Under the pieces are notes generated by a model. That model was not told the origin of the DNA. It made no database searches and saw only the letters and a list, made by a program, of their open reading frames with translations. Source: Ascidiaceihabitans sp. (GTDB taxonomy: Bacteria; Pseudomonadota; Alphaproteobacteria; Rhodobacterales; Rhodobacteraceae). From it: DNA of 64,000 bases. The stretch spans positions 1-64,000 of the forward strand of contig JAQXDI010000016.1 in NCBI GenBank assembly GCA_029251465.1. The letters are read 5' to 3'. The translations under genes were made by a program, and so were the position numbers. This document shows, one piece after another, positions 253 through 17,247 of the stretch. Each line of letters opens with the position of its first letter. Position 1 is the stretch's first letter.

Positions 253-313
253 TTGCCGCAATGCAGCGAAAACCGCTTGAACTTTTCTCTCGAAAATGCC
301 CCTTTGCGCGCAA
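253..313. promoter_or_regulatory. Putative ethylmalonyl-CoA pathway operator upstream of malyl-CoA enzyme gene
   Basis: TTGCCGCAATGCAGCGAA (253-270) occurs identically, on the opposite strand, upstream of the ethylmalonyl-CoA mutase gene (15287-15304). It contains the palindrome TTGC-C-GCAA (253-261). A second palindrome, TTGCGCGCAA, lies at 304-313, about 47 bases further on. Related palindromes are found before the crotonyl-CoA carboxylase/reductase gene. The 118-365 stretch otherwise holds no supported gene. Assignment to a regulator of the ScfR type (TTTGCAAA-like sites) is inference. Confidence 0.55.
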
Positions 314-365
314 CATTCTGTCTCACCCAATCACGTCGTCATCATAGCAAAGAAAGCCCACGCTT

Positions 366-1220
366 ATGCCTTTGGCCCGCCCCCTTCGCTCTGTTCTGTA
401 CATTCCTGCCTCTAAGCCGCGTGCGCTGGACAAGGCGCGTGGCTTGCCCGTCGATGCGATCATCTTTGATCTTGAAGACGCTGTTTCGGTGGATGAAAAG
501 GACGCCTCGCGTGATACCCTTGCCACCGCTTTGACCGAAGGTGGCTATGGCGCACGCATGAAGATTATCCGCATCAACGGGTTGGATACGCAGTGGGGCG
601 AGGCGGATGCAAAGGCCGCGGCCGCGATGAACCCTGACGCGATCCTATTGCCCAAAGTGTCTAGCCCAGCTGATCTGGACGCCTTGCAAAAGATCACTGG
701 CGACATCCCGTTGTGGGCGATGATGGAAACGCCTGCTGGCATGTTGAATGCCGCCGCCATCGGCGCGCACCCGATGTTGCAAGGCATGGTCATGGGCACC
801 AATGATCTGGCGAAAGAGCTGCAAACGCGCCATCGCGCTGACCGCCTGCCACTACAAGCCGGTCTTGGTCTGTGTGTGCTGGCCGCCAAAGCCAACGACC
901 AAGTGATCATCGACGGCGTGTATAATGCGTTCAAAGACGACGAGGGTCTGAAAGTCGAATGTGACCAAGGGCGTGACATGGGCTTTGACGGCAAAACCTT
1001 GATCCATCCCGCACAGGTCGATGTCACCAATATCGCGTTTTCCCCGTCCGACGCCGAGGTCGATTTGGCCCGCCGTCAGATCGAAGCCTTTGATGCCGTT
1101 GAGGCGACAGGTCAGGGCGTAGCCGTCGTGGATGGCAAGATCGTCGAAAACCTTCATGTTGCTACTGCCCGCGATACTCTGGCAAAGGTAGAGGCAATCG
1201 CAGCAATCGCCACGGAGTAA
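366..1220 (+). CDS. mcl2: HpcH/HpaI aldolase/citrate lyase family; malyl-CoA thioesterase or malyl-CoA lyase
   Basis: This 284-residue protein belongs to the CitE/HpcH family of TIM-barrel CoA-ester enzymes. Visible family features are the N-terminal RSVLYIPASKPRALDKA segment, the acidic IFDLEDAV motif near residues 33-40 that binds Mg, and METPAGMLNA near residue 120. Rhodobacteria have two paralogues: (3S)-malyl-CoA/beta-methylmalyl-CoA lyase (about 318 residues) and (3S)-malyl-CoA thioesterase (slightly under 290). The shorter length and this N-terminus fit the thioesterase, which hydrolyses malyl-CoA to malate at the end of the ethylmalonyl-CoA pathway. It starts an operon that ends with mesaconyl-CoA hydratase, which supports the pathway. 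Lyase versus thioesterase is not settled by what I can see. Confidence 0.8.
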   Translation: MPLARPLRSVLYIPASKPRALDKARGLPVDAIIFDLEDAVSVDEKDASRDTLATALTEGGYGARMKIIRINGLDTQWGEADAKAAAAMNPDAILLPKVSSPADLDALQKITGDIPLWAMMETPAGMLNAAAIGAHPMLQGMVMGTNDLAKELQTRHRADRLPLQAGLGLCVLAAKANDQVIIDGVYNAFKDDEGLKVECDQGRDMGFDGKTLIHPAQVDVTNIAFSPSDAEVDLARRQIEAFDAVEATGQGVAVVDGKIVENLHVATARDTLAKVEAIAAIATE

Positions 1221-1224
1221 CCCC

Positions 1225-1770
1225 ATGCTACTGATCATCATCGGCCTGATCCTTTGGACCGGCGCACATTATTGGAAACGTCTGGCACCTGCGCATCGCG
1301 CCGGTTTTGGCGATAAAGGCAAACTGGTGGTCACGATCGCAAGTTTCGCGGCCATCGCGCTGATGGTCATCGGCTATCGCAGCGCTGAGTTTATTCCCGT
1401 TTGGAACCCTCCCAGCTTTTTCCAACACATCAACAACCTGATGATGTTGGGCGCGTTTTTCCTGATCGGGATGTCGGCGACGACGGGCCGTTTACGCGGA
1501 AAAATGCGCCATCCGATGTTGTTGGGTGTCAAGGTCTGGGCCGTCGCGCACCTGTTGGTGAATGGCGATGTCGCATCGATCATTCTGTTCGGTGGGATGC
1601 TGGTGTGGGCCGTTGGATCGGTCATTTTGATCAACCGTTCTGTGCCCGTTTGGGATCGCCCGGCACCCGGTGCCGCGTCCAAAGACATCTTGTTGATTGT
1701 GATCACGCTGGTGACATTTGCCATCGCCGCAGGAATCCACATCGCCCTTGGCGTCAACCCGTTTGGGTAA
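1225..1770 (+). CDS. NnrU family integral membrane protein
   Basis: This 181-residue protein has about five hydrophobic segments, starting with one at residues 1-14 and ending near 155-175, and includes conserved histidines in GAHYWKRLAP and in the KVWAVAHLLVNGD segment. That pattern matches NnrU, an inner-membrane family first linked to nitrite/nitric oxide metabolism and related to some carotenoid and haem-associated membrane enzymes. It starts four bases after the stop of the malyl-CoA enzyme gene and is followed closely by the DUF1737 gene, so it is probably cotranscribed. Its presence inside a carbon-assimilation operon gives no direct clue to substrate; no denitrification gene is in view. 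Confidence 0.8.
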   Translation: MLLIIIGLILWTGAHYWKRLAPAHRAGFGDKGKLVVTIASFAAIALMVIGYRSAEFIPVWNPPSFFQHINNLMMLGAFFLIGMSATTGRLRGKMRHPMLLGVKVWAVAHLLVNGDVASIILFGGMLVWAVGSVILINRSVPVWDRPAPGAASKDILLIVITLVTFAIAAGIHIALGVNPFG

Positions 1771-1779
1771 GGTAACCTC

Positions 1780-1983
1780 ATGAAACTTTATCGCTTTTTG
1801 TCCGAAGAAGACACATCCGCCTTTTGCCACAAAGTCATCGAGGCACTCAACAAAGGGTGGGAACTGTACGGCGCGCCCACCCAAACATGGGATCACGCCG
1901 CAGGCATCATGCGCTGTGGGCAGTCGGTCGTAAAAGAGGTCGATGGCACCTACACCGCCGACACCAAACTGGGACAACACTAG
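1780..1983 (+). CDS. DUF1737 domain-containing small protein
   Basis: A 67-residue soluble protein beginning MKLYRFLSEEDTSAFCHKV, with the W-E-L-x-G core (residues about 27-31) and TYTADTKLGQH at the end. This matches DUF1737, a family of short proteins of unknown function predicted to bind or modify something small through a compact alpha/beta fold. The start has AAGGTAACCTC just upstream. Its TAG stop is directly followed by the ATG of mesaconyl-CoA hydratase with no spacer, which implies translational coupling inside the operon. Confidence 0.8.
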   Translation: MKLYRFLSEEDTSAFCHKVIEALNKGWELYGAPTQTWDHAAGIMRCGQSVVKEVDGTYTADTKLGQH

Positions 1984-3015
1984 ATGAAAAAGACGAATTT
2001 GGGCCGGTTCTTTGAGGACTATTCCATTGGCCAAGTGATTGATCACGCGGTGCCACGGACTGTGAAAATGGGCGAACGGGCGCTGTATCAAGCGCTTTAT
2101 CCGGCGCGCCACGCGCTGTATTCGTCTGACCAGTTTGCCCAAGACTGCGGCCTGCCGTTCAGCCCGCTGGACGATATGATCGCGTTTCACGTTATCTTTG
2201 GCAAAACCGTGCCCGATGTGTCGCTGAATGCAGTGGCGAATTTGGGCTATGCACAGGGGCGCTGGCTGATGCCGGTTTGGCCGGGGGACACGCTGCGCTC
2301 GCGCTCCGAAGTGATCGGGCTAAAGCAGAATTCGAACGGGAAAACGGGCGTGCTGTATGTGCGTACGACGGGTCTGAACCAGCACGACGAAACCGTCATG
2401 GAATACGTGCGCTGGGTGATGGTGCGCAAACGCGACGCTGATGCGCCGGCCCCTGAAACGGTTGTGCCGGACTTGCCAAAGGCGCTGGGCGTGGATAAAC
2501 TTGCGATCCCGAAGGGGCTCGATTTCAGCAACTACAACTTTGCGCTGGCGGGCGAACCGCATCGCTGGCGTGACTACGAAATTGGCGAACAGATCGATCA
2601 CGTCGACGGTGTCACCATCGAAGAAGCTGAACACATGATGGCCACGCGCCTGTGGCAAAACACCGCCAAGGTGCATTTTGATACCTCAGCGCGCCCCGAT
2701 GGGTCACGCTTGATCTATGGTGGCCACGTGATTTCGATGGCGCGTGCCTTGTCGTTCAACGGATTGGCGAATGCGCAGATGGTTGTGGGATTGAACGGCG
2801 GCGCGCACGCGAACCCGTGTTTGGCCGGTGACACCGTGCGGGCATGGTCCGAAGTGTTGGACAAGGCCGAAACAGCAGCCCCCGGCGTTGGTGCGTTGCG
2901 GATGCGATTGGTGGCGACCAAAGGTGGCGCGCCATTCCAGCTGCGCGGCGAGGATGGAAAATACCTGCCAGAGGTGTTGCTGGACTTGGATTATTGGGTG
3001 CTGATCCCGACGTGA
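1984..3015 (+). CDS. mch: Mesaconyl-CoA hydratase (beta-methylmalyl-CoA dehydratase), MaoC family
   Basis: The 343-residue product has two MaoC-like hot-dog domains: FEDYSIGQVIDHAVPRTV near the N-terminus and WRDYEIGEQIDHVDGVTIEEA near residues 189-209. Length and the double-domain plan match mesaconyl-C1-CoA hydratase of Rhodobacter sphaeroides, which hydrates mesaconyl-CoA to beta-methylmalyl-CoA in the ethylmalonyl-CoA pathway. The product is the substrate of malyl-CoA/beta-methylmalyl-CoA lyase, and a gene of that family opens this operon. The ATG abuts the preceding stop codon. No typical terminator follows within the 28 bases before the next gene. Confidence 0.9.
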   Translation: MKKTNLGRFFEDYSIGQVIDHAVPRTVKMGERALYQALYPARHALYSSDQFAQDCGLPFSPLDDMIAFHVIFGKTVPDVSLNAVANLGYAQGRWLMPVWPGDTLRSRSEVIGLKQNSNGKTGVLYVRTTGLNQHDETVMEYVRWVMVRKRDADAPAPETVVPDLPKALGVDKLAIPKGLDFSNYNFALAGEPHRWRDYEIGEQIDHVDGVTIEEAEHMMATRLWQNTAKVHFDTSARPDGSRLIYGGHVISMARALSFNGLANAQMVVGLNGGAHANPCLAGDTVRAWSEVLDKAETAAPGVGALRMRLVATKGGAPFQLRGEDGKYLPEVLLDLDYWVLIPT

Positions 3016-3043
3016 CAGGTGCCAGCGAAAAGTAGCAAAGATT

Positions 3044-4183
3044 ATGCGCAAATTATTTGAACGGATGAACAGCAATCTGGCGGCGCGCGCGTTTCGTGCA
3101 GCCCAAGAGGATGTTGAGGCCGCGCAATCCAAGATGCGCGTTTCGTTGATTTTGGCCAATGTGTTTTCCGCGTTGGTCTTGTGCACTCCGTTGTTGGTTG
3201 CGGCTGCGTCGGCTGGACTACTTTGGGTCAGTCACGGCACGGTTTTGGGCTGGATTCTGGCGGCAATGCTGATGGGTTTGGCTTGGGTTTTGGTCCCGCG
3301 TCGACCACGCAATACTGAACCGACCTATGGTCGCGATGACCTGCCAGAGCTGTTTGAACTGCTGGATCAAGTTTGTGGGAACCTTGACGCACCACAGATC
3401 GATGGTGTGCATTTTATGACAGACATGAACGCCTATCTCTTTGAATACAGGCCGCTCTTTGGGAAAATGCGTAACATTCTGGGGATCGGACTGGCCTATT
3501 GGTACACGCTTGATCCAGCGGAACGGCTGGCGCTGATCGCACATGAAGTTGGCCACATGGTGAACCGTGATCCGGGGCGCAGTTTGGTGATTGGTTAAGC
3601 CATGCAAACCATCGCGGCCTGGGCATTTTGGCTGCAACCAAACAACGAAGAACACTCGATGGTACCGTCGTCTTTTGGTGCGGTTCTGGTCAACACGTTG
3701 CTTGAAATACTAGGCCTGTTTTTCGAGCTTTTGTGGACGTTGCTGCATTGGAGCATGATGTATCATTCGCAAATCGCAGAATACGTAGCCGATGCAAAGT
3801 CGGCCAGCGTGGCCGGTAAAACGGCCGCACATAAATTGTTGTTCACGGCCATACTGAGTGACGAGGCGGAACGTGCAACACGTGGATTGCGGGTTCATAA
3901 CCGGCCCAAAGACGGTTGGATTTTTGATCACATCGCAACTGAAATGCGCAATACGTCAGACGAGCGCAAAGCGTTGCGGATGTCCGAGGCCGAAACGCAA
4001 AAGTCCTCTGTTGATGATAGTCATCCACCAACCGTTTACCGCATCGCTTTTGTCGATCAATTGCCGGATGCGCCTGCACGCGTTACCTTTTCGCAGCAAC
4101 AGGCCGAGGCTATTGATGCGTCTTTTGTTCCTTACAAAGATGCATTGGGTGCGCAAATTTTACGTCGCATAGAAGTGTATTGA
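3044..4183 (+). pseudogene. M48 family metallopeptidase interrupted by in-frame TAA
   Basis: A single reading frame of 380 codons encodes an M48-type membrane-associated zinc peptidase, but codon 185 is TAA (3596-3598). Before it lie two hydrophobic segments (residues about 33-85) and the zinc site HEVGH (167-171). After it, in the same frame, comes AMQTIAAWAFW, a hydrophobic stretch (about 207-235) and E246-x3-D250 (EYVAD), the expected third zinc ligand. In relatives the residue at this point is usually Gln (a G-Q-A context), so CAA to TAA is the simplest lesion. As written, neither half carries a full active site. An ATG two codons after the stop (3602) could restart translation of the second half. 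A sequencing error is possible. Confidence 0.8.
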
Positions 4184-4194
4184 GGGGTGCCCAA

Positions 4195-4914
4195 ATGATC
4201 CGCGCATTGGTTTTTGTATTCGCTTTTTTGGCAGGCAGCGCGCAGGCGCAAAATTCAGATGAATTCATCCGCGCAAACCTGTTGTCGGTCCTGTATCATG
4301 AACTGGGTCATGCGATCATTGATCTGGTCCAGTTGCCGGTCTTTGGCCAAGAAGAAGACGCCGCGGACGTCGCTTCGATCCTGTTGATCAACGAGCTGTT
4401 CGATGAGGCGACCGCGACCGAAATCGCCTACGATTCAGCGTTTGGGTTCTTGGGCGAGGCGCGCACCATCGAACAAGTCGGGCAAGACCCCGCGTGGTGG
4501 GATCTGCATAGCCCGGATTTGCAGCGCTACTACAATCTTGTCTGCTTGTTTGCAGGGGCCAACATCGATGAACGCTCTGATATTGCCGACGAATTGGGCC
4601 TGCCAAAGGACCGCTTGGACACCTGCGAAGAAGAATTCACGCTTGCCGACGACAGTTGGGGACCAGTGTTTGATGACCTCGCAGTTGATGCCCCCGGCAC
4701 GTCCATGATCTACGACGGGGCGACAGACACGCTTGCGGAAAAGCTGGTTGCAGAAGAAGTCGCAGCCCTGAACCGCGATTTTAGTTTGCCCCAAAACCTA
4801 GCCATCAGCGTCGCCTCCTGCGGTGAACCGAACGCGTTTTACGATCCGGAAACGGTCGAGATCATCATGTGTGCGGAAATGGTCAACTGGCTACGCGAAC
4901 TGCCCGTCGATTAA
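4195..4914 (+). CDS. DUF4344 domain-containing putative metallopeptidase, secreted
   Basis: I chose the ATG at 4195 because GAGGGGTG lies seven bases before it and a clean signal peptide follows (MIRALVFVFAFLAGSAQA, cleavage near residue 18); a TTG at 4180 would overlap the preceding stop. The 239-residue product has HELGH at 35-39, the zinc-protease motif, followed by an acidic segment (EEDAADVAS) that may supply the third ligand. This arrangement matches DUF4344, a family of exported putative zinc peptidases. The gene directly follows the broken M48 peptidase gene. Substrate unknown. Confidence 0.8.
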   Translation: MIRALVFVFAFLAGSAQAQNSDEFIRANLLSVLYHELGHAIIDLVQLPVFGQEEDAADVASILLINELFDEATATEIAYDSAFGFLGEARTIEQVGQDPAWWDLHSPDLQRYYNLVCLFAGANIDERSDIADELGLPKDRLDTCEEEFTLADDSWGPVFDDLAVDAPGTSMIYDGATDTLAEKLVAEEVAALNRDFSLPQNLAISVASCGEPNAFYDPETVEIIMCAEMVNWLRELPVD

Positions 4915-4979
4915 ACCCACCTCTAAACCCACGTCAATTTGAAGTGCGGCCTGCGACGTTAGCGGCTAGGCTAACACCT

Positions 4980-5657
4980 ATGAAACCTATTGCCTTTGCC
5001 GCCATGCTGCTGTCGCCCGCCCCCGCGGTTGCCTGCGAATTGGCGTTGGTGTTGGCGGTGGATGTGTCGGGTTCGGTGGATAGCAATGAATATGCGATCC
5101 AGATGGGCGGGCTGGCCACAGCGCTGCGTGACGGTATCGTTGTTGATGCGCTGATCGACCAGTCAGCACAAATCACATTGGTGCAATGGACCGGGTCATC
5201 GCGGCAAAAACAAACAATTCCGTGGACCAGCATGCGCACCTACGCTGATGTCATCAGTCTGGCAGATACGATTGACCAAGATCCACGCATTTGGCGCAAT
5301 TTCTCGACAGCCATAGGCGAAGCAGTGTCGATGTCGCTGGCGTTGTTCGACCAAGTGCCGCAGTGCGCGCGCAAAGTCATTGATGTGTCGGGTGACGGGG
5401 TCTCGAACGAAGGCGCTGAGCCGATCACGCAATTGGCAGCAATCCGCGCAGCAGGTGTGATCGTAAATGCACTTGCCATCGAAACCGACAAGACGGACCT
5501 GACGGCCTATTTTTACGAAAACCTGATCTCGGGCGAGGGGGCATTTGTGGTCACCGCACAAGGTTTTGACGACTATCCCGGCCAAATCAGACGCAAACTG
5601 CAACGCGAAACGACAAAGCAGGTGACAGGTTTGGCAAGGCGGGTAAATTCGCCATGA
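4980..5657 (+). CDS. DUF1194 domain-containing protein (von Willebrand A-like)
   Basis: From the ATG at 4980 the product is 225 residues with a signal peptide (MKPIAFAAMLLSPAPAVA) and a VWA-like core. The MIDAS motif D-V-S-G-S-V appears at residues about 29-34 after LALVLAV, and further core strands include ARKVIDVSGDGVSNEGA. These features identify DUF1194, a periplasmic family of unknown role common in Rhodobacteraceae. A longer reading frame upstream (from 4869) overlaps the previous gene and lacks a signal peptide, so it is less likely. The stop codon almost touches the first TGTGATCACA palindrome upstream of sdhC. Confidence 0.8.
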   Translation: MKPIAFAAMLLSPAPAVACELALVLAVDVSGSVDSNEYAIQMGGLATALRDGIVVDALIDQSAQITLVQWTGSSRQKQTIPWTSMRTYADVISLADTIDQDPRIWRNFSTAIGEAVSMSLALFDQVPQCARKVIDVSGDGVSNEGAEPITQLAAIRAAGVIVNALAIETDKTDLTAYFYENLISGEGAFVVTAQGFDDYPGQIRRKLQRETTKQVTGLARRVNSP

Positions 5658-5658
5658 A

Positions 5659-5689
5659 TGTGATCACACGACTTGAGGCTGTGATCACA
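5659..5689. promoter_or_regulatory. Tandem TGTGATCACA palindromes upstream of sdhC
   Basis: Two perfect 10-base palindromes TGTGATCACA lie at 5659-5668 and 5680-5689, with centres exactly 21 bases apart, two turns of the helix. They sit about 120-150 bases before the sdhC start, in the only long gap (5658-5805) ahead of the sdh operon. The pattern suggests a dimeric regulator bound twice on one face of the DNA. It resembles a CRP site without the central six bases. The regulator is not known to me. Confidence 0.6.
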
Positions 5690-5805
5690 AATTGCCAAAA
5701 CCGTATCAATCCTATAGAAATTCACAGCAATATTAACCCTGTGCTACGTGACACTGCCGTAAAAATCGCTAGTAAAGGGACAAGTTTTGAAAAGGGACCA
5801 GTAGC

Positions 5806-6189
5806 ATGGCTGATGTAAACCGGGGCAATCGCCCGCTTTCACCGCACCTGTCAATCTATCGACCACAACTGACGTCGATGACTTCGATCCTGACGCGGAT
5901 CACAGGCAACGCACTTTTGATATCGTCACTTTTGGTGATTTGGTGGTTCTTGGCGGCTGCAACGTCGGAAACATATTTCGCGTATGCAGACGGGCTGTTG
6001 ACCAGCTGGTTTGGCGACATCGTGATGACCTTGTCCGTCCTGGGGCTGTGGTATCACACGCTCGCCGGTGTGCGGCATCTGATTTGGGACAACGGCATTG
6101 GCCTCGATATCCCAACAGCAGAAAAGATGGGCTGGGCAGTGATCGCCGGTTCCGTCATTCTGACCATTCTCACAATCATCATTGTTTAA
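5806..6189 (+). CDS. sdhC: Succinate dehydrogenase cytochrome b556 subunit
   Basis: The 127-residue membrane anchor has the family signature SPHLSIYRP (residues 12-20) and the haem-ligand region H84-TLAGVRHL in the second of three membrane segments (about 30-52, 70-90, 108-126). It anchors SDH in the inner membrane and, with SdhD, holds haem b and the ubiquinone site. AAGGGACC precedes the ATG. It is the first gene of sdhCDA-x-y-sdhB and follows a 148-base gap with regulatory palindromes. Confidence 0.95.
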   Translation: MADVNRGNRPLSPHLSIYRPQLTSMTSILTRITGNALLISSLLVIWWFLAAATSETYFAYADGLLTSWFGDIVMTLSVLGLWYHTLAGVRHLIWDNGIGLDIPTAEKMGWAVIAGSVILTILTIIIV

Positions 6190-6201
6190 GGGACGCAAAG
6201 C

Positions 6202-6573
6202 ATGGCATTTTTGACCGACCGAAAACGCGCCGTTGGCATGGGGTCTGCAAAGACCGGCACCGAACATTTCTGGGCAATGAAGGTCAGCGCCGTCGCGCTG
6301 CTGCTGTTGATCCCGATGTTCGTCTTCACCTTTGGGCCGATGCTTGGCAAGCCCTACGCCGAAGTGATTGCCTATTTTGCGCGTCCCTTTCCTGCAATCA
6401 TCGCAGCCCTGACCATTGGGGTCACCATGATGCACTTTAAAATGGGTGTCCAAACCCTGATCGAGGACTACGTTCATGGAACGGCCCAAAAGGTCAGCAT
6501 CGTTTTGATGATCTGTCTCTCTTATGCGGCGGCTGCGACTGGCATTTTTGCTATCGCCCGTCTCGCGCTTTAA
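6202..6573 (+). CDS. sdhD: Succinate dehydrogenase hydrophobic membrane anchor subunit
   Basis: A 123-residue protein with three hydrophobic segments (about 30-52, 58-80, 95-118) and the conserved [15 protein letters not shown] opening plus [18 protein letters not shown] in the loop after helix two. These are typical of alphaproteobacterial SdhD. It starts 12 bases after sdhC with AAGGGACGC in front, and is followed by sdhA. With SdhC it forms the membrane domain that passes electrons from SdhB to ubiquinone. Confidence 0.95.
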
Positions 6574-6595
6574 TCGATACAAAGGAGACCTGAAA

Positions 6596-8404
6596 ATGGC
6601 TGCTTATGAATACGAAACACATGAATATGACGTGGTTGTTGTCGGGGCAGGGGGCGCAGGTTTGCGCGCCACGCTCGGCATGGCGGAGCAGGGCTTGCGC
6701 ACCGCGTGCATTACCAAGGTTTTCCCGACCCGCTCCCACACCGTTGCGGCGCAGGGCGGAATCGCTGCCTCGCTCTCCAACATGGGGCCGGACCATTGGC
6801 AGTGGCATCTTTACGACACTGTAAAGGGTTCCGATTGGCTCGGTGATACAGACGCGATGGAGTACCTCGCGCGCGAAGCCCCCAAGGCGGTTTACGAGTT
6901 GGAACACTACGGCGTGCCGTTTTCGCGCACCGAAGAGGGCAAGATTTACCAGCGTCCGTTTGGTGGCCACACCACTGAATTTGGCGAAGGCCCCGCCGTG
7001 CAACGCACCTGTGCTGCTGCTGATCGCACCGGCCACGCCATTCTGCACACGCTTTACGGTCAGTCGCTGAAGAACAACGCGGAATTCTACATCGAATACT
7101 TCGCGATCGATTTGATCATGTCCGATGACGGTGTTTGCCAAGGCGTGCTGTGCTGGAAACTGGACGACGGCACCATGCACATGTTCTCTGCCAAAATGGT
7201 TGTGCTGGCTACGGGGGGCTATGGCCGCGCTTATTTCTCGGCCACGTCTGCGCACACGTGCACAGGCGACGGCGGCGGCATGACGGCACGTGCTGGTTTG
7301 CCATTACAAGACATGGAATTTGTACAATTCCACCCGACAGGGATCTACGGCGCTGGTTGTTTGATCACCGAAGGTGCACGCGGCGAAGGTGGCTATCTGA
7401 CCAACTCCGAAGGCGAGCGTTTCATGGAACGCTATGCGCCCCAGTACAAAGACCTCGCACCACGCGATTACGTGTCGCGCTGTATGACGATGGAAATCCG
7501 TGAAGGGCGCGGTGTGGGCGCAAGCGGCGATCACATCCACCTGAACCTGAACCACCTGCCCAAAGAAACGCTGGACCTGCGTCTGCCGGGTATTTCGGAA
7601 TCCGCGCGCGTCTTTGCCGGCGTCGATCTGACCAAAGAACCGATCCCGGTTTTGCCAACTGTTCACTACAACATGGGCGGTATTCCGACGAACTATTGGG
7701 GTGAGGTTTTGAACCCAACCGCTGATACGCCTGATGCAGTGTCACCGGGCCTGATGGCTGTGGGCGAAGCGGGCTGTGCCTCGGTGCACGGCGCGAACCG
7801 TCTGGGGTCAAATTCACTGATCGATTTGGTCGTATTTGGCCGCGCCGCTGCGATCCGCGCAGGCGAAATCGTGGACCCGTCGACACCTGTGCCAACGCCG
7901 AACCAAAAATCGGTGGACGCCGCGTTTGAACGTTTCGACAACACACGCCACGCCAAAGGTCACACGCCAACGGCGGCGCTGCGTATGGAAATGCAACAGA
8001 CGATGCAAAAAGACGCAGCCGTGTTCCGTGCCAATGATACTTTGGCCGAAGGCAAAGCAAAAATGGACGAAGTCGCGGCGAAATGGTCGGACATCGGTGT
8101 CACCGACCGCTCACTGGTTTGGAACTCTGATTTGATGGAAACGTTAGAACTGGCCAACCTGATCCCCAACGCGGTCGCCACGATTACCGGGGCCGAGGCG
8201 CGCAAAGAAAGCCGTGGTGCCCACGCGCACGAGGATTTCCCGGAGCGCGATGACGAGAACTGGCGCAAGCACTCTCTGACGTGGTTCAACGGCAAAAACG
8301 AGGCGCGCCTATCTTATCGCGGCGTGCATCTACAGCCTTTGACCAGCCACAATGACGGCGGTATCGACCCCAAGAAGATCGCTCCAAAAGTGCGTAACTT
8401 CTGA
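6596..8404 (+). CDS. sdhA: Succinate dehydrogenase flavoprotein subunit
   Basis: A 602-residue flavoprotein. The start at 6596 is set by AAGGAGACC six bases upstream and by the standard N-terminus; a longer frame would overlap sdhD. The FAD dinucleotide motif GAGGAG is at 17-22, the covalent FAD histidine is H48 in [10 protein letters not shown], and substrate-site sequence [19 protein letters not shown] follows in the middle of the protein. It oxidises succinate to fumarate, linking the TCA cycle and the ethylmalonyl-CoA pathway (which releases succinate) to respiration. The TGA stop overlaps the ATG of the next gene (TGATG). Confidence 0.97.
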
Positions 8405-8736: not shown

Positions 8737-8740
8737 ACCC

Positions 8741-9562: not shown

Positions 9563-9563
9563 C

Positions 9564-10343: not shown

Positions 10344-10365
10344 GCTGGTCAGCAATCCAATACAT

Positions 10366-10392
10366 AACGGCGGCCCATGGGTCGCCGTTTTT
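10366..10392 (+). terminator. Rho-independent terminator of the sdh operon
   Basis: AACGGCG (10366-10372) pairs with CGCCGTT (10383-10389); the loop itself contains CCCATGGG, which can extend the stem. A run of T follows (10388-10392). It lies 22 bases after the sdhB stop. Confidence 0.85.
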
Positions 10393-10458
10393 GTGTGTTG
10401 AACCTAAATTCCGGTTGCGCCAATGTCCTTGGACGCAGGTGCCAACAGGACGAAACCC

Positions 10459-10677
10459 ATGCCCTTAATTCTTGTCGCAGTTATTGCGTTTTTTGTCGTG
10501 GCGTTTTTAGCCCGCCGCGCACGACCCAATCGCGAATGCCGCTGGCGGGCTGACGCATCCGGTAACCGTGGAACTTTGCGCAAGTGCAATTGTGCCGCCT
10601 GCGGAGCCGAGGCGTTTACGTCGTCAACGGGTGTTCCAAAAGACTGCAAATCGCTGCATCGTCCGCCCAGCTTGTAA
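10459..10677 (+). CDS. Small protein with N-terminal membrane segment and two paired cysteines
   Basis: From the ATG at 10459 (ACAGGACG upstream) the product is 72 residues: one hydrophobic segment (MPLILVAVIAFFVVAFLA), a basic patch (RRARP), then a C-terminal part with C-N-C-A-A-C-G that resembles a small metal-binding knuckle. An in-frame ATG at 10423 would add 12 residues that look unlike a membrane-protein start. I do not recognise a named family. It lies just upstream of the DUF1989 gene on the same strand. Confidence 0.55.
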   Translation: MPLILVAVIAFFVVAFLARRARPNRECRWRADASGNRGTLRKCNCAACGAEAFTSSTGVPKDCKSLHRPPSL

Positions 10678-10686
10678 GGATACAAC

Positions 10687-11532
10687 ATGACCCAACCCTC
10701 AGATGCAGCTGCGCGCCGCGCCATAAAGCCAATCATTTGCTACCATGTCGATACGCTGCCGGCCCCGGATATGGATCTGTATACGAGGGCGCGGGACACT
10801 TTGACCAAGGTCGACGAGGTCATTGCACCTGCCCGCGAGGCGGCAACGTTTCATGTTCCCAAAGGTCATTTTTTCCGCATCACTTCGGTGGAAGGTTCGC
10901 AAGTTGGCGACCTCAATCTGTTCAATGCGAATGACCTGAACGAGCGGTTCTATTCCGGCAAAACGCGTGCGTTGCACGGCACACACATCACGACGGGTCA
11001 ACGCATGTGGTCTAGTTTTCCAGGGCTGCGGCCTATGGCGACGATCACCCATGACACGCTTGGTTGGTACGGAATGGATGAATTTGGCGGTTCGGTGCAC
11101 GACGTGATTGGCACGCGCTGCGATCCCTATACGCATAATTTGCTGGCCGGTGGGCAGTACCACCATTGCTGCCATTCGAACCTGTCGCGTGCGATGGCGG
11201 ACCATCTGGATGTGACACCGCAAGAGGCGGAAGCTCATGTTCACGACGTGTTCAACGTGTTTATGTGCACAGGGTTTACCCGCGATACCGGACAATATTT
11301 TATGAAGGCATCACCGGTACGCCCCGGTGATTACCTTGAATTTTTCGCAGAGATTGATTTGCTTGGATGCCTCAGTGCCTGCCCAGGCGGGGACTGTTCA
11401 TCTGAACATTCATCGGACGAGGCCGCGTGTTACCCGCTGCTGGTTGAAGTGTTCAAGCCGGCGGCGGGCAGTTTGGATGGCTGGGTTTCACCCCAGCCCA
11501 ACGAATATGATCGCAGCCACGGGCGCGGCTAG
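10687..11532 (+). CDS. DUF1989 / urea carboxylase-associated family protein
   Basis: The 281-residue protein carries the DUF1989 fold: [23 protein letters not shown] (about residues 55-77), the CDPYTHNLL block and the cysteine-rich [12 protein letters not shown] segment near residue 235. DUF1989 proteins are linked to urea and guanidine degradation, where the paired urea carboxylase-associated proteins form part of carboxyguanidine deiminase. Those proteins normally come as a pair next to the carboxylase; here there is one gene alone, so the substrate is uncertain. AAGGATACAAC precedes the start. Its last bases overlap by four with the convergent deoD gene. Confidence 0.8.
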
Positions 11533-12233
11533 TTAAACGCGGCTTGCAACGCGATTTCGACCATGTCGCCAAAGCTGCGTTCGCGGTCTGTCGAGGGCAA
11601 GGCTTCACCCGTTTGCAAGTGGTCCGACACAGTCAAAACCGCCAATGCGCGACGCCCGTAACGGGCAGCAAGCGTGTAAAGTTCGGCGGCCTCCATTTCG
11701 ACGCCAAGAATGCCGTGGCGCGTCATTTGTTCGTTCAGATCAGGGCGTTCGTCATAGAACACATCCGACGAATAAATGCCGCCAACATGAGTGTCTGTGC
11801 CTTTGGCCTGTGCGGCGTTCACTGCGGCTGCGAGCAGCCCGTAATCGGCACAGGGCGCGTAGTTGAATTCCTTAAAGATACCAGAGGACGGCGAATTTAT
11901 TGTGCTGGCTGTCATCGCGATGATCACGTCACGGACTTTGACCTGAGGCTGCATGCCGCCACAGCTGCCAATGCGGATCAGCGTTTTTGCATCGTAGTCC
12001 TTGATCAGCTCGTTCACATAGATCGACAATGACGGCATGCCCATGCCTGACCCTTGGATGGTCACGCGATTGCCATTCCACGTGCCGGTGAACCCCAGCA
12101 TGCCTCTGACTTCATTGACCAGTTTGACGTCTGTCAAAAACGTCTCTGCGGCCCATTTGGCGCGATAAGGGTCGCCAGGCAGCAGGACTGTTTCAGCGAT
12201 TTCGCCTGGTTTTGCACCGATGTGAACTGTCAT
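11529..12233 (-). CDS. deoD: Purine-nucleoside phosphorylase DeoD-type
   Basis: The 234-residue protein, starting [22 protein letters not shown], matches bacterial hexameric purine nucleoside phosphorylase. Conserved elements include the phosphate-binding R-I-G-S-C-G segment near 87-92, the [13 protein letters not shown] block that binds ribose and base, and the S-D-H catalytic Asp region ([10 protein letters not shown]). It splits purine nucleosides to base and ribose-1-phosphate in the cytoplasm. I chose the start at 12233, with AAAGGATCC upstream; a longer frame lacks support. It runs divergently from a small lipoprotein gene, and the shared gap holds a double palindrome. The BMP-type importer at 24501-29464 could supply substrate. 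Confidence 0.92.
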
Positions 12234-12320
12234 GAAGGATCCTTTCAGGTTTTTGGCAACCTGCCCCGAGGGGATGAATAGGGCAAGAGACAAGTGGGGA
12301 AAACCATACTTGAAGAATGT

Positions 12321-12367
12321 GGCGAACATTGTTCATGTATTTGTGAACGGCGTTCATAATGTTCGCC
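12321..12367. promoter_or_regulatory. Double GAAC-N3-GTTC operator in deoD / lipoprotein divergent promoter
   Basis: GAAC-ATT-GTTC (12324-12334) and GAAC-GGC-GTTC (12345-12355) have centres exactly 21 bases apart. A further GTTCGCC at 12361-12367, with GGCGAAC at 12321-12327, makes a perfect 10-base inverted repeat (GGCGAACATT / AATGTTCGCC) that encloses both. The array lies 88 bases from the deoD start and 20 from the lipoprotein start, so it may overlap the promoter of the latter. The half-site spacing is not that of the LexA box (direct GTTC-N7-GTTC). Confidence 0.6.
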
Positions 12368-12387
12368 GCAACACAAAGGTGTTTGTT

Positions 12388-12741
12388 ATGAAAACTATTC
12401 TTGTCGCCGCTCTTTTGGGATCAATTGGTCTAACGGCCTGTGATGTTTCACATCCAGTCGCAGTGGTTGGCCCGGCCAACACAGTTTATCGTGGCACGGC
12501 AACGGCCACATTTTTAGAAGGCGGCTGGTTTCAGGTCAGCAATGGCGGAACCAATTGTTCCGGTCGATACACGCCAGCGTCCGAGACGCGCAAAGTGACC
12601 TTTCCTGTCAAATGCTCAAACGGGCTGGCAGGGGTAGGCACCGCGCAATATGAAACGCCGCGTTCAGGTGGTGGTGAAATTGTCATGCAAGATGGTAGCC
12701 GCTGGCAATTCATCTTTGGACGGGGTGCACTATCCGTCTAG
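12388..12741 (+). CDS. Small lipoprotein, unknown function
   Basis: The 117-residue product has a lipoprotein signal (MKTILVAALLGSIGLTAC, lipidated Cys at residue 18) and a beta-rich mature part of about 100 residues with two more cysteines (C51 and C71). The glycine- and threonine-rich pattern suggests a small beta-barrel or sandwich. No named family is recognised. It is transcribed divergently from deoD and ends before a hairpin shared with the convergent H-NS-like gene. The long in-frame extension upstream runs through the operator region and is unlikely to be coding. Confidence 0.65.
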   Translation: MKTILVAALLGSIGLTACDVSHPVAVVGPANTVYRGTATATFLEGGWFQVSNGGTNCSGRYTPASETRKVTFPVKCSNGLAGVGTAQYETPRSGGGEIVMQDGSRWQFIFGRGALSV

Positions 12742-12752
12742 CAGCGTCGGAA

Positions 12753-12787
12753 TGGAAATGGCCCGTCGAATACGCAGGCCATTTCCA
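12753..12787. terminator. Hairpin between convergent genes, possible bidirectional terminator
   Basis: TGGAAATGGCC (12753-12763) pairs perfectly with GGCCATTTCCA (12777-12787) across a 13-base loop. It lies 12 bases after the lipoprotein stop and 15 bases from the end of the convergent H-NS-like gene. The following T run is weak in both directions, so termination strength is uncertain. Confidence 0.5.
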
Positions 12788-12801
12788 AAATCTCTTTGAA
12801 G

Positions 12802-13140
12802 CTAGATTGCCAAATCGTCCGGAGACGTTCCGGCCTCAACGGCATTTTTGAACCAGAATGGCTGACGCCCTTTCCCAGTCCATGTTTGTGCCGGGTCTTC
12901 TGGATTTGCAAAGCGGGCTACAGCCGGTTTGCTCTTTTTCTTTTTGGGTTTGGCTGCCACGCTTGGCGCTTTGTCTTTGGCCAAATCTTTCAGTGAAAAC
13001 CCGAATTCAGCAACAGCTTTTTCTGCGGCTTTCATGGCTTCACGACGATCACGGGCTTTGGCTGTAAGCAGCGCTTTTTTAACATCTGCAGCCAGCTTTT
13101 CTAACTCTTTACGTGTCAGGGATTTAAGATCAAATTTCAT
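12802..13140 (-). CDS. H-NS family nucleoid-associated protein (HvrA/Spb-like)
   Basis: The 112-residue protein begins MKFDLKSLTRKELEKLAADV, a helical oligomerisation region, has a basic linker (KPKKKKSKP, residues about 70-78), and ends with the DNA-binding core TWTGKGRQPFWFKNAVE, the motif of H-NS C-terminal domains. Rhodobacter relatives (HvrA, Spb) act as nucleoid proteins and regulators of photosynthesis and nitrogen genes. The start at 13140 has GAGGAC upstream. A 23-base palindrome overlaps the region just before that ribosome-binding site. An N-terminal extension in the same frame reads through the palindrome and is not supported. Confidence 0.9.
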   Translation of the reverse strand: MKFDLKSLTRKELEKLAADVKKALLTAKARDRREAMKAAEKAVAEFGFSLKDLAKDKAPSVAAKPKKKKSKPAVARFANPEDPAQTWTGKGRQPFWFKNAVEAGTSPDDLAI

Positions 13141-13150
13141 AGGATTGTCC

Positions 13151-13173
13151 TCGCAATTCGATTCGAATTGCGA
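13151..13173 (-). promoter_or_regulatory. Perfect 11-bp-arm palindrome at the ribosome-binding site of the H-NS-like gene
   Basis: TCGCAATTCGA and TCGAATTGCGA are exact inverted copies separated by one base. On the minus strand the element ends where the GAGGAC ribosome-binding site begins, ten bases from the start codon. It could be a DNA operator or, in RNA, a hairpin that touches the Shine-Dalgarno sequence. Which of these applies cannot be told from sequence. Confidence 0.6.
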
Positions 13174-13243
13174 AGGCCATATACGACAATAACCAAAAGG
13201 ATCAAGAAAAACCCTTGATCTATTTTGTATCAATAACTCTGGG

Positions 13244-15211
13244 TTATGCTGCTTCTACTTCTGATGGGTCTGCGAGCGTCACAATATCCATCATAATAGT
13301 ATTCAATTCGAAATCCTTCGGTGTATACACGCGCGCAACACCCATTGCTTTCAGGCGTTCTGCATCTTCGTCGGGAATGATTCCTCCGACAATGACCGGA
13401 ATTTCACTAAGGTTAGCAGTCCGCATCCGTTGCATCAATTCTTCGACCAGCGGAATATGGCTGCCGGACAGAATTGAAAGACCCACAACATGCGCGCCGT
13501 CTTCAATTGCGGCGGTGACCAATTCTTCTGGCGTTAGGCGAATACCTTCGTACGAGATATCCATGCCGCAATCGCGTGCGCGCACAGCAATTTGTTCCGC
13601 CCCGTTCGAGTGGCCATCGAGCCCCGGCTTGCCAACCAAAAATTTAAGGCGGCGGCCCAATTTATCGCTGACCGCATCGACGCTATCGCGCAGATCATCC
13701 AGGCCCTCGGTTTGGTTGGAACGGCCAGCGGCAACTCCGGTTGGTCCGCGATATTCTCCATGCACAGCGCGCATTTGGGCGGCCCATTCGCCGGTGGTCA
13801 CGCCCGCTTTGGCCGCAGCAATTGACGGTTCCATCACATTGCGCCCCTCAGCGGCGGCACTGCGCAAATCCGCCAGAGCGGCGTCGACAGCGACCTGATC
13901 ACGATCCGCGCGCCAGACGTTCAGGCGATCGATTTGCCCTTGTTCTTCGGCAGGGTCGACAACCATGATGCCACCATCGGCGGTCATCAGCGGCGAAGGT
14001 TCTGTGCTGGTGTATTTGTTGACGCCAACCACCACCGTTTCACCGGATTCAATTCTGTTCAGGCGCGCAGCGTTCGATCCGACCAATTGCGATTTCATAT
14101 AGTCGATAGCGTCGATTGCCCCACCCATTCCGTCAAGGTTCGCCAATTCAGCGCGCGCGCCGTTCTTTAATTCTTCTACCTTTGCATCGACCGCAGGGTT
14201 GCCATCGAACAGGTCGTCAAATTCCAAAAGATCCGTTTCAAACGCCATGATTTGTTGCATGCGCATGGACCATTGCTGATCCCATGGGCGGGGCAGGCCG
14301 AGGGCTTCGTTCCAGGCGGGCAATTGCACGGCCCGCGCGCGTGCTTTTTTAGAAAGCGTCACGGCCAGCATTTCGATGAGAATACGATAAACGTTGTTTT
14401 CAGGCTGCTGCTCGGTCAACCCAAGGGAATTGACCTGAACGCCATAGCGGAAACGGCGGTATCTCGCCTCGGTTACGCCATAGCGGGTTTCGCAAATTTC
14501 ATCCCAAAGATCGACAAAAGCGCGCATTTTGCACATCTCGGTGACGAACCGAATTCCGGCGTTTACGAAAAACGAAATACGCCCGACCAATGCGGGGAAA
14601 TCCTCAACCGCAACACGCGGGCGCAATTCATCCAAGACGGCAGTAGCTGTCGCCAATGCAAAGGCCAATTCCTGTTCCGGTGTCGCCCCTGCTTCTTGCA
14701 AGTGATAGGAACACACGTTCATCGGGTTCCATTTTGGCACGTTTGTGTAGCAATACTCGGCCACGTCCGCGATCATTTTTAGCGATGGTTTTGGCGGGCA
14801 AATATACGTGCCGCGCGATAAGTATTCTTTGATCAGGTCGTTTTGAACCGTGCCTTGCAGAGTGGCCACATCCGCACCCTGTTCTTCGGCTACAGCGATG
14901 TACAGCGCCAGCAACCAAGGGGCGGTTGCGTTGATCGTCATCGACGTGTTCATTTGCTCAAGCGGAATGTCCGCAAACAAGGCGCGCATGTCGCCAAGGT
15001 GGGACACTGGCACGCCGACTTTGCCGACTTCGCCGCGCGACAAAACGTGATCGCTGTCATAGCCGGTTTGTGTGGGCAGATCGAAAGCGACGGACAGGCC
15101 GGTTTGGCCTTTGGCAAGGTTCGAGCGATACAACAGGTTCGAAGCCTTGGCGGTTGAGTGCCCCGCGTACGTGCGGATCAGCCAGGGACGGTCTTTTTGT
15201 GTTTGTGTCAT
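13244..15211 (-). CDS. ecm: Ethylmalonyl-CoA mutase, coenzyme B12-dependent
   Basis: The 655-residue protein has the N-terminal TIM barrel of acyl-CoA mutases (RTYAGHSTAKASN, SVAFDLPTQTGYDSDH) and a C-terminal B12 domain with D532-x-H534-x-x-G537 (DGHSNG), where the histidine coordinates cobalt. It converts (2R)-ethylmalonyl-CoA to (2S)-methylsuccinyl-CoA, the step after crotonyl-CoA carboxylase/reductase. Methylmalonyl-CoA mutase is the main alternative, but the early RPWLIRTYAGHS start, the single-chain form of this size and nearby ccr favour ecm. I chose MTQTQKDRPW at 15211 over an upstream in-frame start at 15238. The promoter shares sequence with other pathway genes. Confidence 0.92.
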   Translation of the reverse strand: MTQTQKDRPWLIRTYAGHSTAKASNLLYRSNLAKGQTGLSVAFDLPTQTGYDSDHVLSRGEVGKVGVPVSHLGDMRALFADIPLEQMNTSMTINATAPWLLALYIAVAEEQGADVATLQGTVQNDLIKEYLSRGTYICPPKPSLKMIADVAEYCYTNVPKWNPMNVCSYHLQEAGATPEQELAFALATATAVLDELRPRVAVEDFPALVGRISFFVNAGIRFVTEMCKMRAFVDLWDEICETRYGVTEARYRRFRYGVQVNSLGLTEQQPENNVYRILIEMLAVTLSKKARARAVQLPAWNEALGLPRPWDQQWSMRMQQIMAFETDLLEFDDLFDGNPAVDAKVEELKNGARAELANLDGMGGAIDAIDYMKSQLVGSNAARLNRIESGETVVVGVNKYTSTEPSPLMTADGGIMVVDPAEEQGQIDRLNVWRADRDQVAVDAALADLRSAAAEGRNVMEPSIAAAKAGVTTGEWAAQMRAVHGEYRGPTGVAAGRSNQTEGLDDLRDSVDAVSDKLGRRLKFLVGKPGLDGHSNGAEQIAVRARDCGMDISYEGIRLTPEELVTAAIEDGAHVVGLSILSGSHIPLVEELMQRMRTANLSEIPVIVGGIIPDEDAERLKAMGVARVYTPKDFELNTIMMDIVTLADPSEVEAA

Positions 15212-15234
15212 CGAAAACCTCGTGAATCGCTTCG

Positions 15235-15304
15235 GCAATAATATTGCGTTGATTGACTGATACTTGGAATTTTATGCTAGTGTCAATTCGCTGCATTGCG
15301 GCAA
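15235..15304. promoter_or_regulatory. Putative ethylmalonyl-CoA pathway operator upstream of ecm
   Basis: TTCGCTGCATTGCGGCAA (15287-15304) is the exact reverse complement of the 18-mer upstream of the malyl-CoA enzyme gene (253-270). Within it ATTGC-G-GCAAT (15295-15305) is a palindrome. A second palindrome, GCAATA-A-TATTGC (15235-15247), lies closer to the ecm start. A similar pair of elements, in the same strand order, precedes the crotonyl-CoA carboxylase/reductase gene. Confidence 0.55.
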
Positions 15305-15311
15305 TTCAATC

Positions 15312-15674
15312 TTATCTTCGTATCGCAGCCGCAGCAATCATGGCCCAGCCCAACAGTCCCTGGGAATGTGCTGACAGGGTTCCGTCGCTGCGAAAAGTAA
15401 GGAACTGCAGGATATTTGAGGGGTTTGGTGCTGATCGAACGACCCACTGCAAGGGCAGGCCATCGATGATTGCAATGTAATATAGATAGTAGATTTGTGG
15501 GCTAAGCCAAACAAACATCCAGAAACCGCCGAGTGCGATCAACACCCGTAACGCCCAATGCGCCTTTAGATAAAACATCGCCCAGACGCTCCCGCCAGAC
15601 AGGCACAGCGACAGCAGGGCGAGTCCGATTTGACCAAATAGGCTAAGAGTAAAGAAAGAGTCGCCGCCATACAT
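15312..15674 (-). CDS. Small integral membrane protein, unknown
   Basis: A 120-residue protein with three likely membrane helices (about residues 10-32, 42-66 and 105-118) and aromatic loops (SPQIYYLYY). No family is recognised with confidence. A GAGGGC stretch directly precedes the ATG. It is transcribed divergently from the acyltransferase gene at 15767 and in the same direction as ecm, whose promoter elements lie just beyond its stop. Confidence 0.6.
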   Translation of the reverse strand: MYGGDSFFTLSLFGQIGLALLSLCLSGGSVWAMFYLKAHWALRVLIALGGFWMFVWLSPQIYYLYYIAIIDGLPLQWVVRSAPNPSNILQFLTFRSDGTLSAHSQGLLGWAMIAAAAIRR

Positions 15675-15766
15675 GCCCTCAGAATGCGCAGGCCATGCGG
15701 AAAAGAACAGCGTCCCACGCGTAACTTTCTGTTTACCCCCAACACCAGCCCTGTAAGGGTGCGGCG

Positions 15767-17119
15767 ATGATGCAGACTGTTGAACTCCCTATTTGGTTAT
15801 TCGTGCTGATCCTGCTCTTTGCAGCGGTCACAGCCCTGAGCCACTTTCTTTTGCCATCTGTGCGCTGGTTTTTTCGCCGCCGTTTGGAGCGCGCGGTTAA
15901 GAAATTGAACGAACGCCTTGAACGCCCGATCGAGCCATTCAAGCTGGCGCGTCGTTACGACATGATCCAGCGCCTGAGCTATGATCCCGAAGTGACCCGC
16001 GCGATTGTTGACTACGCGAGTGAACATGATGTGCCCGAAAACGTCGGCTTTCAAAAAGCGCAGTCTTACGCCCGCGAAATCGTGCCCAGCTTTAGTGCGT
16101 TCGCATATTTCGGATTCGGCATTCGGGTCGCGCGCTGGTTGGCCAATGCGCTTTATAATGTGCGGACCGGGCCGAAAAACGACGCGCGTCTGGCCGATTT
16201 GCCCAAGGACGCGACCGTTATTTTCATTATGAACCACCGATCCAACATGGATTATCTGTTGGTCACGTATCTGGCTGCACGCGCGTCGGCCCTGTCGTAT
16301 GCGGTTGGCGAATGGGCGCGGGTGTGGCCGCTGTCCAAACTGATCAAATCGCTCGGCGCGTATTTCATTCGGCGCAAATCGCGCGGTGCGTTGTACCGCA
16401 AGGTTCTGGCGCGTTACGTTCAAATGGCCCGCGACGGCGGCGTGACCCAAGCGGTGTTCCCCGAAGGCGGCCTAAGCCTAAATGGCAAACTGATGCCGCC
16501 AAAGATGGGCCTGTTGTCTTACATTCTTGAGGAATACGACCCCGAAGCCCGCGAAGTGATCTTTGTTCCCGTTGCAATTAACTACGACCGTGTGTTGGAA
16601 GACCGCGTGCTGATTGCTGCGGATCAGCGGGGCGATCGCCGCTTTGGCGGCAAAGTGTCCGTTGTGTTCAAATTCATCGCCCGCAAGATTTGGTTGCGTT
16701 TGCGTGGCAAGTTCTTGCGTTTTGGAACGGCGGCCGTTGTGTTCGGTGAACCTGTGTCCTTGCGCACCTATGAAGAACCGCCGAGCGCCCAAGAACTGGC
16801 CCAAGATCTGATGGCCCGCATTCAAGACGTCATGCCGGTGTTGTTCGTACCTCTCTTGTCGCGCGCAGTGTTGCAGGCCGAATCTGCTTTGGATGATGCA
16901 GCGCTTGCACAGGCCGTGAACAAACAGATCGCCGCCTGCCAAGGCGAGCTGCCATTGACCGCACCAGAGGACTTTGCGGCGACAGTGCGGTTGGCCCGCG
17001 AACACATGGAACAGCGCAAGCTGATTACGCACACGGATGCAGGCTGGGAAAAGACCCCGGATCAGATTCCCGTCTTGCAGTACTATTCAAATTCGATTGC
17101 GCATTTTTTCGCGCAATAG
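15767..17119 (+). CDS. PlsC-domain acyltransferase (glycerol-3-phosphate / lysophosphatidate type)
   Basis: The 450-residue protein has one N-terminal membrane segment (residues about 8-27) and a PlsC/PlsB acyltransferase domain. The catalytic box is NHRSNMDYL (H-x4-D), followed by the substrate box FPEGGLSLNGK and the VPVAINYDRV strand. The extended C-terminal half and the size fit a glycerol-3-phosphate or 1-acyl-glycerol-3-phosphate acyltransferase of phospholipid synthesis at the inner membrane. It lies upstream of ccr on the same strand, separated by a 153-base gap that holds the ccr promoter. Exact acceptor not determined. Confidence 0.8.
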   Translation: MMQTVELPIWLFVLILLFAAVTALSHFLLPSVRWFFRRRLERAVKKLNERLERPIEPFKLARRYDMIQRLSYDPEVTRAIVDYASEHDVPENVGFQKAQSYAREIVPSFSAFAYFGFGIRVARWLANALYNVRTGPKNDARLADLPKDATVIFIMNHRSNMDYLLVTYLAARASALSYAVGEWARVWPLSKLIKSLGAYFIRRKSRGALYRKVLARYVQMARDGGVTQAVFPEGGLSLNGKLMPPKMGLLSYILEEYDPEAREVIFVPVAINYDRVLEDRVLIAADQRGDRRFGGKVSVVFKFIARKIWLRLRGKFLRFGTAAVVFGEPVSLRTYEEPPSAQELAQDLMARIQDVMPVLFVPLLSRAVLQAESALDDAALAQAVNKQIAACQGELPLTAPEDFAATVRLAREHMEQRKLITHTDAGWEKTPDQIPVLQYYSNSIAHFFAQ

Positions 17120-17184
17120 ATGCAGTCGCAGCAAAATTTCCGCACTAGCAAAGTCATAAAGTTACAAAAAACATACCCAAGAGG

Positions 17185-17247
17185 TTGCAATATTACCTTG
17201 TGACCCATATCCCACTGTGAAAGCAGCGCGATTCTGCGTTGCGGCAC
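17185..17247. promoter_or_regulatory. Putative ethylmalonyl-CoA pathway operator upstream of ccr
   Basis: CTGCGTTGCGGCA (17234-17246) differs by one base from CTGCATTGCGGCA in the 18-mer before ecm (15291-15303). TTGCAATATTA (17185-17195) contains the TTGCAA palindrome and shares GCAATATTA with the reverse complement of the ecm element at 15235-15247. The two parts are about 50 bases apart, close to the spacing at ecm (54) and at the malyl-CoA gene (47). Confidence 0.55.

Follow-up and report, generated by a model that had tools for sequence, protein, structure and literature searches.

Element A, a palindromic element shared by the promoters of mcl, ecm, and ccr, was studied in a 64,000-nucleotide stretch of an Ascidiaceihabitans sp. 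genome (contig JAQXDI010000016.1, positions 1 to 64,000), i.e., the window. The shared element is real. Most likely it is not a ScfR site but an operator of PhaR, the sensor-repressor of polyhydroxybutyrate (PHB). Taken as a whole, the best explanation is that element A is the PhaR operator and that PhaR would hold back the upper ethylmalonyl-CoA pathway until it is titrated away by PHB granules, with a probability of about 0.88. What the analysis shows is the sites, their likeness to PhaR sites, how widely they are conserved, and that they are missing from genomes lacking both PhaR and PHB synthase.

Likeness of element A to PhaR sites

Three copies of element A were located, scored here with a matrix of phasin and phaR promoter sites.

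254 to 268, no strand assigned: element A (candidate PhaR operator, palindromic core TGCCGCAATGCAGCG) before the mcl operon; 18.1 bits, rank 3
15289 to 15303, no strand assigned: element A (candidate PhaR operator) before ecm, adjoining a TTGACA -35-like hexamer; 18.1 bits, rank 2
17232 to 17246, no strand assigned: element A (candidate PhaR operator) before ccr, between the presumed transcription start and the start codon; 18.5 bits, rank 1

The sequence-only reading had placed TTGCCGCAATGCAGCGAA at 253-270 (plus strand) before the mcl operon, with an exact minus-strand copy at 15287-15304 before ecm, and CTGCGTTGCGGCA at 17234-17246 before ccr, where 12 of 13 bases match. A direct sequence check of the window verified all of its sequences at their positions, and the common regulator that it proposed before the three transcription units is well supported. 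With up to three mismatches, the 18-mer occurs in the window at the two exact places only; under this limit, which is loose, 3 of 100 shuffles gave at least two matches. Across the genome (3.32 Mb, 87 contigs, 91% complete), the only exact copies of the 18-mer are the two in the window; no place differs from it by one mismatch, three differ by two, and four by three. Conservation at orthologous promoters, given below, is stronger evidence against chance than these counts.

All three window sites fit YGCRNYGCR and each is one base off CTGCNNNGCAG, i.e., the PhaR motifs published for Sinorhizobium meliloti and Rhodobacter sphaeroides, respectively (main text of PMC12542648). The known PhaR operator core, CTGC-N3-GCAG, is from the same bacterial order, and element A is the same palindrome with one base changed. 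A single PhaR gene was found in the genome (PF07879; TIGR01848, 145 bits against a cut-off of 109). As in the known PhaR operator system, the element stands before the adjacent phasin gene phaP (two sites) and phaR (one site). The difference is that here it also precedes the acetate-assimilation genes ccr, ecm, mcl, and mcd. The name phaP was given from the position beside phaC and phaR and from similarity to the genes of relatives at that place; the phasin-like product had no match among the Pfam and NCBIfam models.

In relatives, the element was found in 23/23 phaP and 21/30 phaR promoters with up to two mismatches. The matrix was built from 71 sites in these promoters, and the three window sites were the three best among all window positions. 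The fourth was in a coding region at 3741 (16.5 bits), the next best reached 12.4 bits, and none of the 215 tiles of 200 bp from position 20,000 on reached 15 bits. A second matrix, independent of the window sites, used 17 sites from the S. meliloti literature for which gel shifts showed efficient PhaR binding. Among 63,980 window positions, it ranked mcl first, ecm third, and ccr tenth, the ccr score being weak (9.0 bits). A de novo search, with no motif supplied, also recovered element A in the ccr, ecm, and mcl promoters; in the mcl promoters, the strongest motif was not element A but element B, which is described in the last section.

Conservation in Rhodobacterales and absence where PhaR is lacking

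Orthologous promoters were compared in the best 80 of at least 597 Rhodobacterales ccr loci, of which 79 gave usable upstream regions (L034 was too short). With up to two mismatches, element A was found within 200 bp before ccr in 76 of the 79 loci (shuffle mean 1.65) and before ecm in 69/73 (shuffle mean 1.8). It was at the same place before mcl in 24 of the 27 genomes with PhaR and in none of the three without. By matrix score, all 76 ccr regions outside the PhaR-less lineage reach 12 bits and 69 reach 15; the corresponding counts are 63/71 and 48 for ecm, and 23/27 and 20 for mcl. The distance of element A is conserved across loci. The 30,435 bp of ccr and ecm promoters hold 123 sites of at least 15 bits and the surrounding 1,505,509 bp hold 23, i.e., sites are approximately 265 times denser in the promoters. 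In a second set, 19 of 22 orthologous ccr promoters carried the element, the misses being G053, G195, and G197.

The core is G+C-rich and a relaxed pattern matches many genome places, as would suit a match by chance or base composition. However, promoter shuffles gave one or two matches against the 76 and 69 observed. Because of these shuffles, the conservation at the same distance across loci, and the site density, chance was rejected, and its probability is negligible.

Eight plasmid-borne ccr copies were also searched. Both Rhodobacterales copies, i.e., Paracoccus denitrificans and Ruegeria sp. TM1040, have the site. No site was found in the six copies from Methylobacterium (two), Methylocystis, Rhizobium (two, one strain), and Bradyrhizobium, where the best score was 6.4 bits; these are a weak limit on extension beyond Rhodobacterales because some may be extra ccr copies. 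The scores for these six copies, for TM1040, and for the second phaP site of G045, as well as the motif alignments, come from an earlier 75-site matrix that included two wrongly cut phaP regions (L153 and L161).

Of the 80 genomes, 50 were searched for PhaR, and 45 have it. In a family draw it was found in 289 of 296 genomes, and two of the seven without it have an orthologous ccr (G053 and G156). L030, L033, and L035, the three of the 79 loci that have no element A before ccr, fall in three of the five PhaR-less genomes of the first set. PhaR and the PHB synthase PhaC are both absent from G003, G006, G008, and G053, and element A is missing at ccr in all four; the complete genome of G053 has a decayed ccr site (6.1 bits). 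The element is also missing at mcl in G003, G006, and G008, and at both readable ecm promoters. Site presence tracks PhaR, i.e., the site is absent in 4/4 genomes without PhaR and PhaC at every promoter examined.

The sites may instead be bound by another factor with a PhaR-like site, whose gene was lost along with PHB synthesis. The support for PhaR consists of DNA resemblance and co-absence, and four site-less genomes are a small number. However, the same element precedes phaP in 23/23 and phaR in 21/30 promoters of relatives, and the PhaR-binding sites of S. meliloti predict element A. We regard such a factor as unlikely and prefer PhaR.

Some further observations were made on these genomes. 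In the ccr upstream regions of genomes without PhaR (L030, L033, L035, and L211), the left half-site GATTCTGCGCC is kept and the right half is decayed. G133, G173, and G298 are without PhaR, PhaC, and an orthologous ccr, and carry instead a crotonyl-CoA reductase relative of approximately 50% identity. G202 also carries a crotonyl-CoA reductase relative (loci L226, L227, L228, and L229 for the four genomes).

PhaR or ScfR, and the wider set of sites

The sequence-only reading had named a ScfR-class regulator for the shared element. Two ScfR proteins are indeed encoded in the genome, and the gene of the stronger one lies one gene from pccB. Boxes of the known ScfR type, TTTGCAAA, flank pccB and this neighbouring ScfR gene (L133:4237, 4262, and 5595), which fits the known ScfR control of propionyl-CoA carboxylase. 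However, no TTTGCAAA boxes were found in the ccr, ecm, and mcl promoters, where there is a single TTGCAA at 17185. The pccB promoter, which had been expected to match, has no element A site (5.0 bits). PccR of R. sphaeroides and RamB of P. denitrificans act in the same metabolic area, whereas element A is unlike both the TTTGCAAA boxes and the RamB boxes (TGACAAACCTTACA and TGACAATACTGACT) given in a passage of PMC10370305. In the same source, ccr expression of P. denitrificans is described as unchanged after deletion of the PccR-like or the MccR-like gene, and two ScfR regulators are excluded for the upper ethylmalonyl-CoA pathway (PMC10370305). Element A matches the PhaR operator and is missing from the genomes that lack both PhaR and PhaC. 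Because the TTTGCAAA boxes are at pccB and the ScfR gene and none are at the three promoters, ScfR was rejected for element A; a regulator of the PccR or RamB class at the shared element is very unlikely. From this distribution of boxes, and with pccB lacking element A, control appears to be split, with the propionyl-CoA step under a ScfR protein and the upper pathway under PhaR.

In this genome, 43 places match TGCYGCRNYGCRGCA with at most one mismatch. Sites were found before mcl, ecm, ccr, phaP (two), phaR, phaA-phaB, mdh (malate dehydrogenase), pntA (transhydrogenase), hbd (3-hydroxybutyryl-CoA dehydrogenase), ppdK (pyruvate phosphate dikinase), and mcd. The ppdK site overlaps the gene start, and gel shifts have proven ppdK to be a target of PhaR in S. 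meliloti (PMC12542648). Matches had been foreseen at the phaA/B and mcd promoters, and both were found. The former is site C75:2494, which precedes the thiolase gene (phaA) and, after it, a gene for an acetoacetyl-CoA reductase (TIGR01829 over the cut-off), and the latter is a 16.3-bit site with two mismatches. The mcd candidate is an acyl-CoA dehydrogenase of 562 amino acids with its best match to PDB 6es9 (E 1e-256), which we take to be methylsuccinyl-CoA dehydrogenase of P. denitrificans. The relaxed genome-wide pattern was rejected as proof of a regulon, as its matches at two mismatches are mostly background.

The ethylmalonyl-CoA pathway and PHB synthesis have their first two steps in common. 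If PhaR acts at all of these sites, it would, in cells without PHB, hold down thiolase and acetoacetyl-CoA reductase together with ccr, ecm, mcd, and mcl. Under a surplus of acetyl-CoA, PHB would accumulate and PhaR would move to the granules. The upper ethylmalonyl-CoA pathway would then be released, along with phasin and the supporting genes mdh, pntA, ppdK, and hbd. PhaR is described to repress when PHB is absent and to be drawn to granules as PHB accumulates (main text of PMC12542648). From such published work on PhaR in other species we infer binding, repression, and release by PHB at the present promoters. The ccr site lies right after the presumed transcription start and therefore fits repression by PhaR.

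Several points weigh against this explanation. The ecm and mcl sites are upstream of a -35-like hexamer, and the sign of regulation is less certain. Roughly two thirds of the 43 genome places are inside open reading frames, high-scoring sites occur inside genes too (e.g., window 3741), and up to two mismatches give 389 genome places versus 267 for a reversed control. The phaP/phaR matrix is not fully independent, because the pattern that picked its sites was written after the three window sites had been seen. G003, G006, and G008 seem to form one lineage, so there may have been only two loss events. Sites are missing in some genomes with PhaR, i.e., at ccr in G195 and G197 (2/20 PhaR genomes of the second set), at mcl in G031, G040, and G041 (3/27), and at ecm in L092. 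Conversely, G045, G050, and G156 keep the ccr site (18.5 bits in G156) though PhaR was not found in them, and PhaC is present in all three. The contig of G045 ends 183 bases after phaP. In G156, a gene other than phaR follows phaP (L276:1538-3014), and the phaP promoter keeps two strong 23-bit sites. PhaR may therefore be unassembled in both genomes; G050 is not explained in this way.

PhaR operators and broad PhaR regulons are already known. The regulon of S. meliloti PhaR (AniA) resembles the present set in that its sites extend beyond PHB genes to central carbon metabolism, ppdK is shared, and the motif fits. It differs in its central targets, i.e., gltA, pdh, pyc, zwf, and others, and the word "ethylmalonyl" is absent from the main text (PMC12542648). 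In Methylobacterium extorquens, a phaR mutation alters many transcripts, and "ccr" is absent from the main text of that report (PMC6520949). CcrR, a TetR-family activator of ccr in the same species, is named in a reference title of PMC10370305. It acts on the same gene but belongs to another order and another regulator family; no PhaR-like site was found at two Methylobacterium ccr copies (best 6.4 and 2.1 bits). A link between PhaR and the ethylmalonyl-CoA pathway was not reported in the literature searched, to which subscription papers were mostly external, so that one may be in print. Likewise, no regulator of the upper pathway in Rhodobacterales was named in the literature examined.

The findings suggest joint control of carbon storage and acetate use in this bacterium and in many of its relatives. 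If PhaR is a regulator of the upper pathway, a protein that senses the polymer would decide, at the common entry of both pathways, whether acetyl-CoA is stored as PHB or assimilated, which is of relevance to bioplastic and acetate-based production. The proposal is directly testable, as a ccr-mCherry reporter strain of P. denitrificans exists (PMC10370305). A ccr promoter of P. denitrificans has two candidate sites, of 15.5 and 13.2 bits.

Three other PhaR-like sites of the genome were noted. A perfect palindrome of 24.0 bits (L136:2001-2015; C62:16603) lies approximately 100 bp upstream of ruvC, with no obvious carbon gene near. A perfect match at L135:1594-1608 (C10:1594) is approximately 310 bp from a phage-type integrase gene, likely at an island edge. 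A LysR-type regulator gene starts immediately after a 19.0-bit site at L113:2001-2015 (C56:52084).

Element B, promoter layout, and window genes

The sequence-only reading had also reported a second palindrome of related type at each promoter, i.e., TTGCGCGCAA at 304-313, GCAATAATATTGC at 15235-15247, and TTGCAATATTA at 17185-17195. These sequences are present, but the label of related type was wrong, as they are part of a separate element B. Element B consists of two 13-bp boxes per promoter, with starts 31 bp apart, in the ccr, ecm, and mcl promoters. The boxes and the putative ccr promoter hexamer are as follows.

17153 to 17165, plus strand: element B box 1 of ccr (GTCATAAAGTTAC); de novo motif, assigned in 79/79 ccr upstream regions
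17184 to 17196, plus strand: element B box 2 of ccr (GTTGCAATATTAC), 31 bp after box 1, overlapping the putative -35 hexamer TTGCAA; assigned in 79/79
15266 to 15278, minus strand: element B box 1 of ecm; de novo motif in 69/74 ecm upstream regions
15235 to 15247, minus strand: element B box 2 of ecm, the GCAATAATATTGC named above; de novo motif in 72/74
279 to 291, plus strand: element B box 1 of mcl, divergent, which may partly be the -35 region; de novo motif in 24/31
310 to 322, plus strand: element B box 2 of mcl, its start overlapped by TTGCGCGCAA; de novo motif in 31/31
17208 to 17213, plus strand: putative ccr -10 hexamer TATCCC, 17 bp after TTGCAA; TATYYC conserved in 77 sequences aligned on box 1

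The pair of TTGCAA and TATCCC, with 17 bp between them, suggests that ccr transcription starts upstream of element A, where element A would be a roadblock; a sigma-70 promoter scan of the ccr upstream region found no promoter. At ecm and mcl, element A is immediately upstream of the -35-like TTGACA or TTGAAC.

The two boxes of one promoter are only partly alike. A two-box pattern made from ccr and ecm matched the genome exactly only at ccr and ecm, its own source sites. With three mismatches it matched two further places, and the controls gave 0 and 1. Like the RamB sites of P. denitrificans, element B has two boxes with an 18-bp spacer, which is less clear in mcl. However, its boxes are 13 bp with a 31-bp period, compared with 14 bp and 32 bp for RamB, and the box sequences differ (passage of PMC10370305). 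Deletion of ramB in P. denitrificans raises transcripts of the ethylmalonyl-CoA pathway (PMC10370305). Element B may be bound by a ScfR-like or other regulator, and it is retained in PhaR-less genomes. The upper pathway could have two inputs, for which we would give even odds. PhaR would report polymer through element A, a dedicated regulator would report a pathway signal through element B, and the loss of PHB synthesis would have removed the first only.

The genes of the window behind these promoters are given below. The exact enzyme name of mcl is our assumption from pathway context, and the name ecm is presumed from the place of the gene beside ccr.

366 to 1220, plus strand: mcl, malyl-CoA/beta-methylmalyl-CoA lyase (CitE-like family); NCBIfam citE and relatives, below curated cut-offs
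1984 to 3015, plus strand: mesaconyl-CoA hydratase-like gene, downstream of mcl; NCBIfam hydratase models, below cut-off
13244 to 15211, minus strand: ecm, methylmalonyl-CoA-mutase-like protein (ethylmalonyl-CoA mutase); TIGR00641 and TIGR00640 over cut-off
17273 to 18553, plus strand: ccr, crotonyl-CoA carboxylase/reductase; TIGR01751, 610 bits against a cut-off of 379

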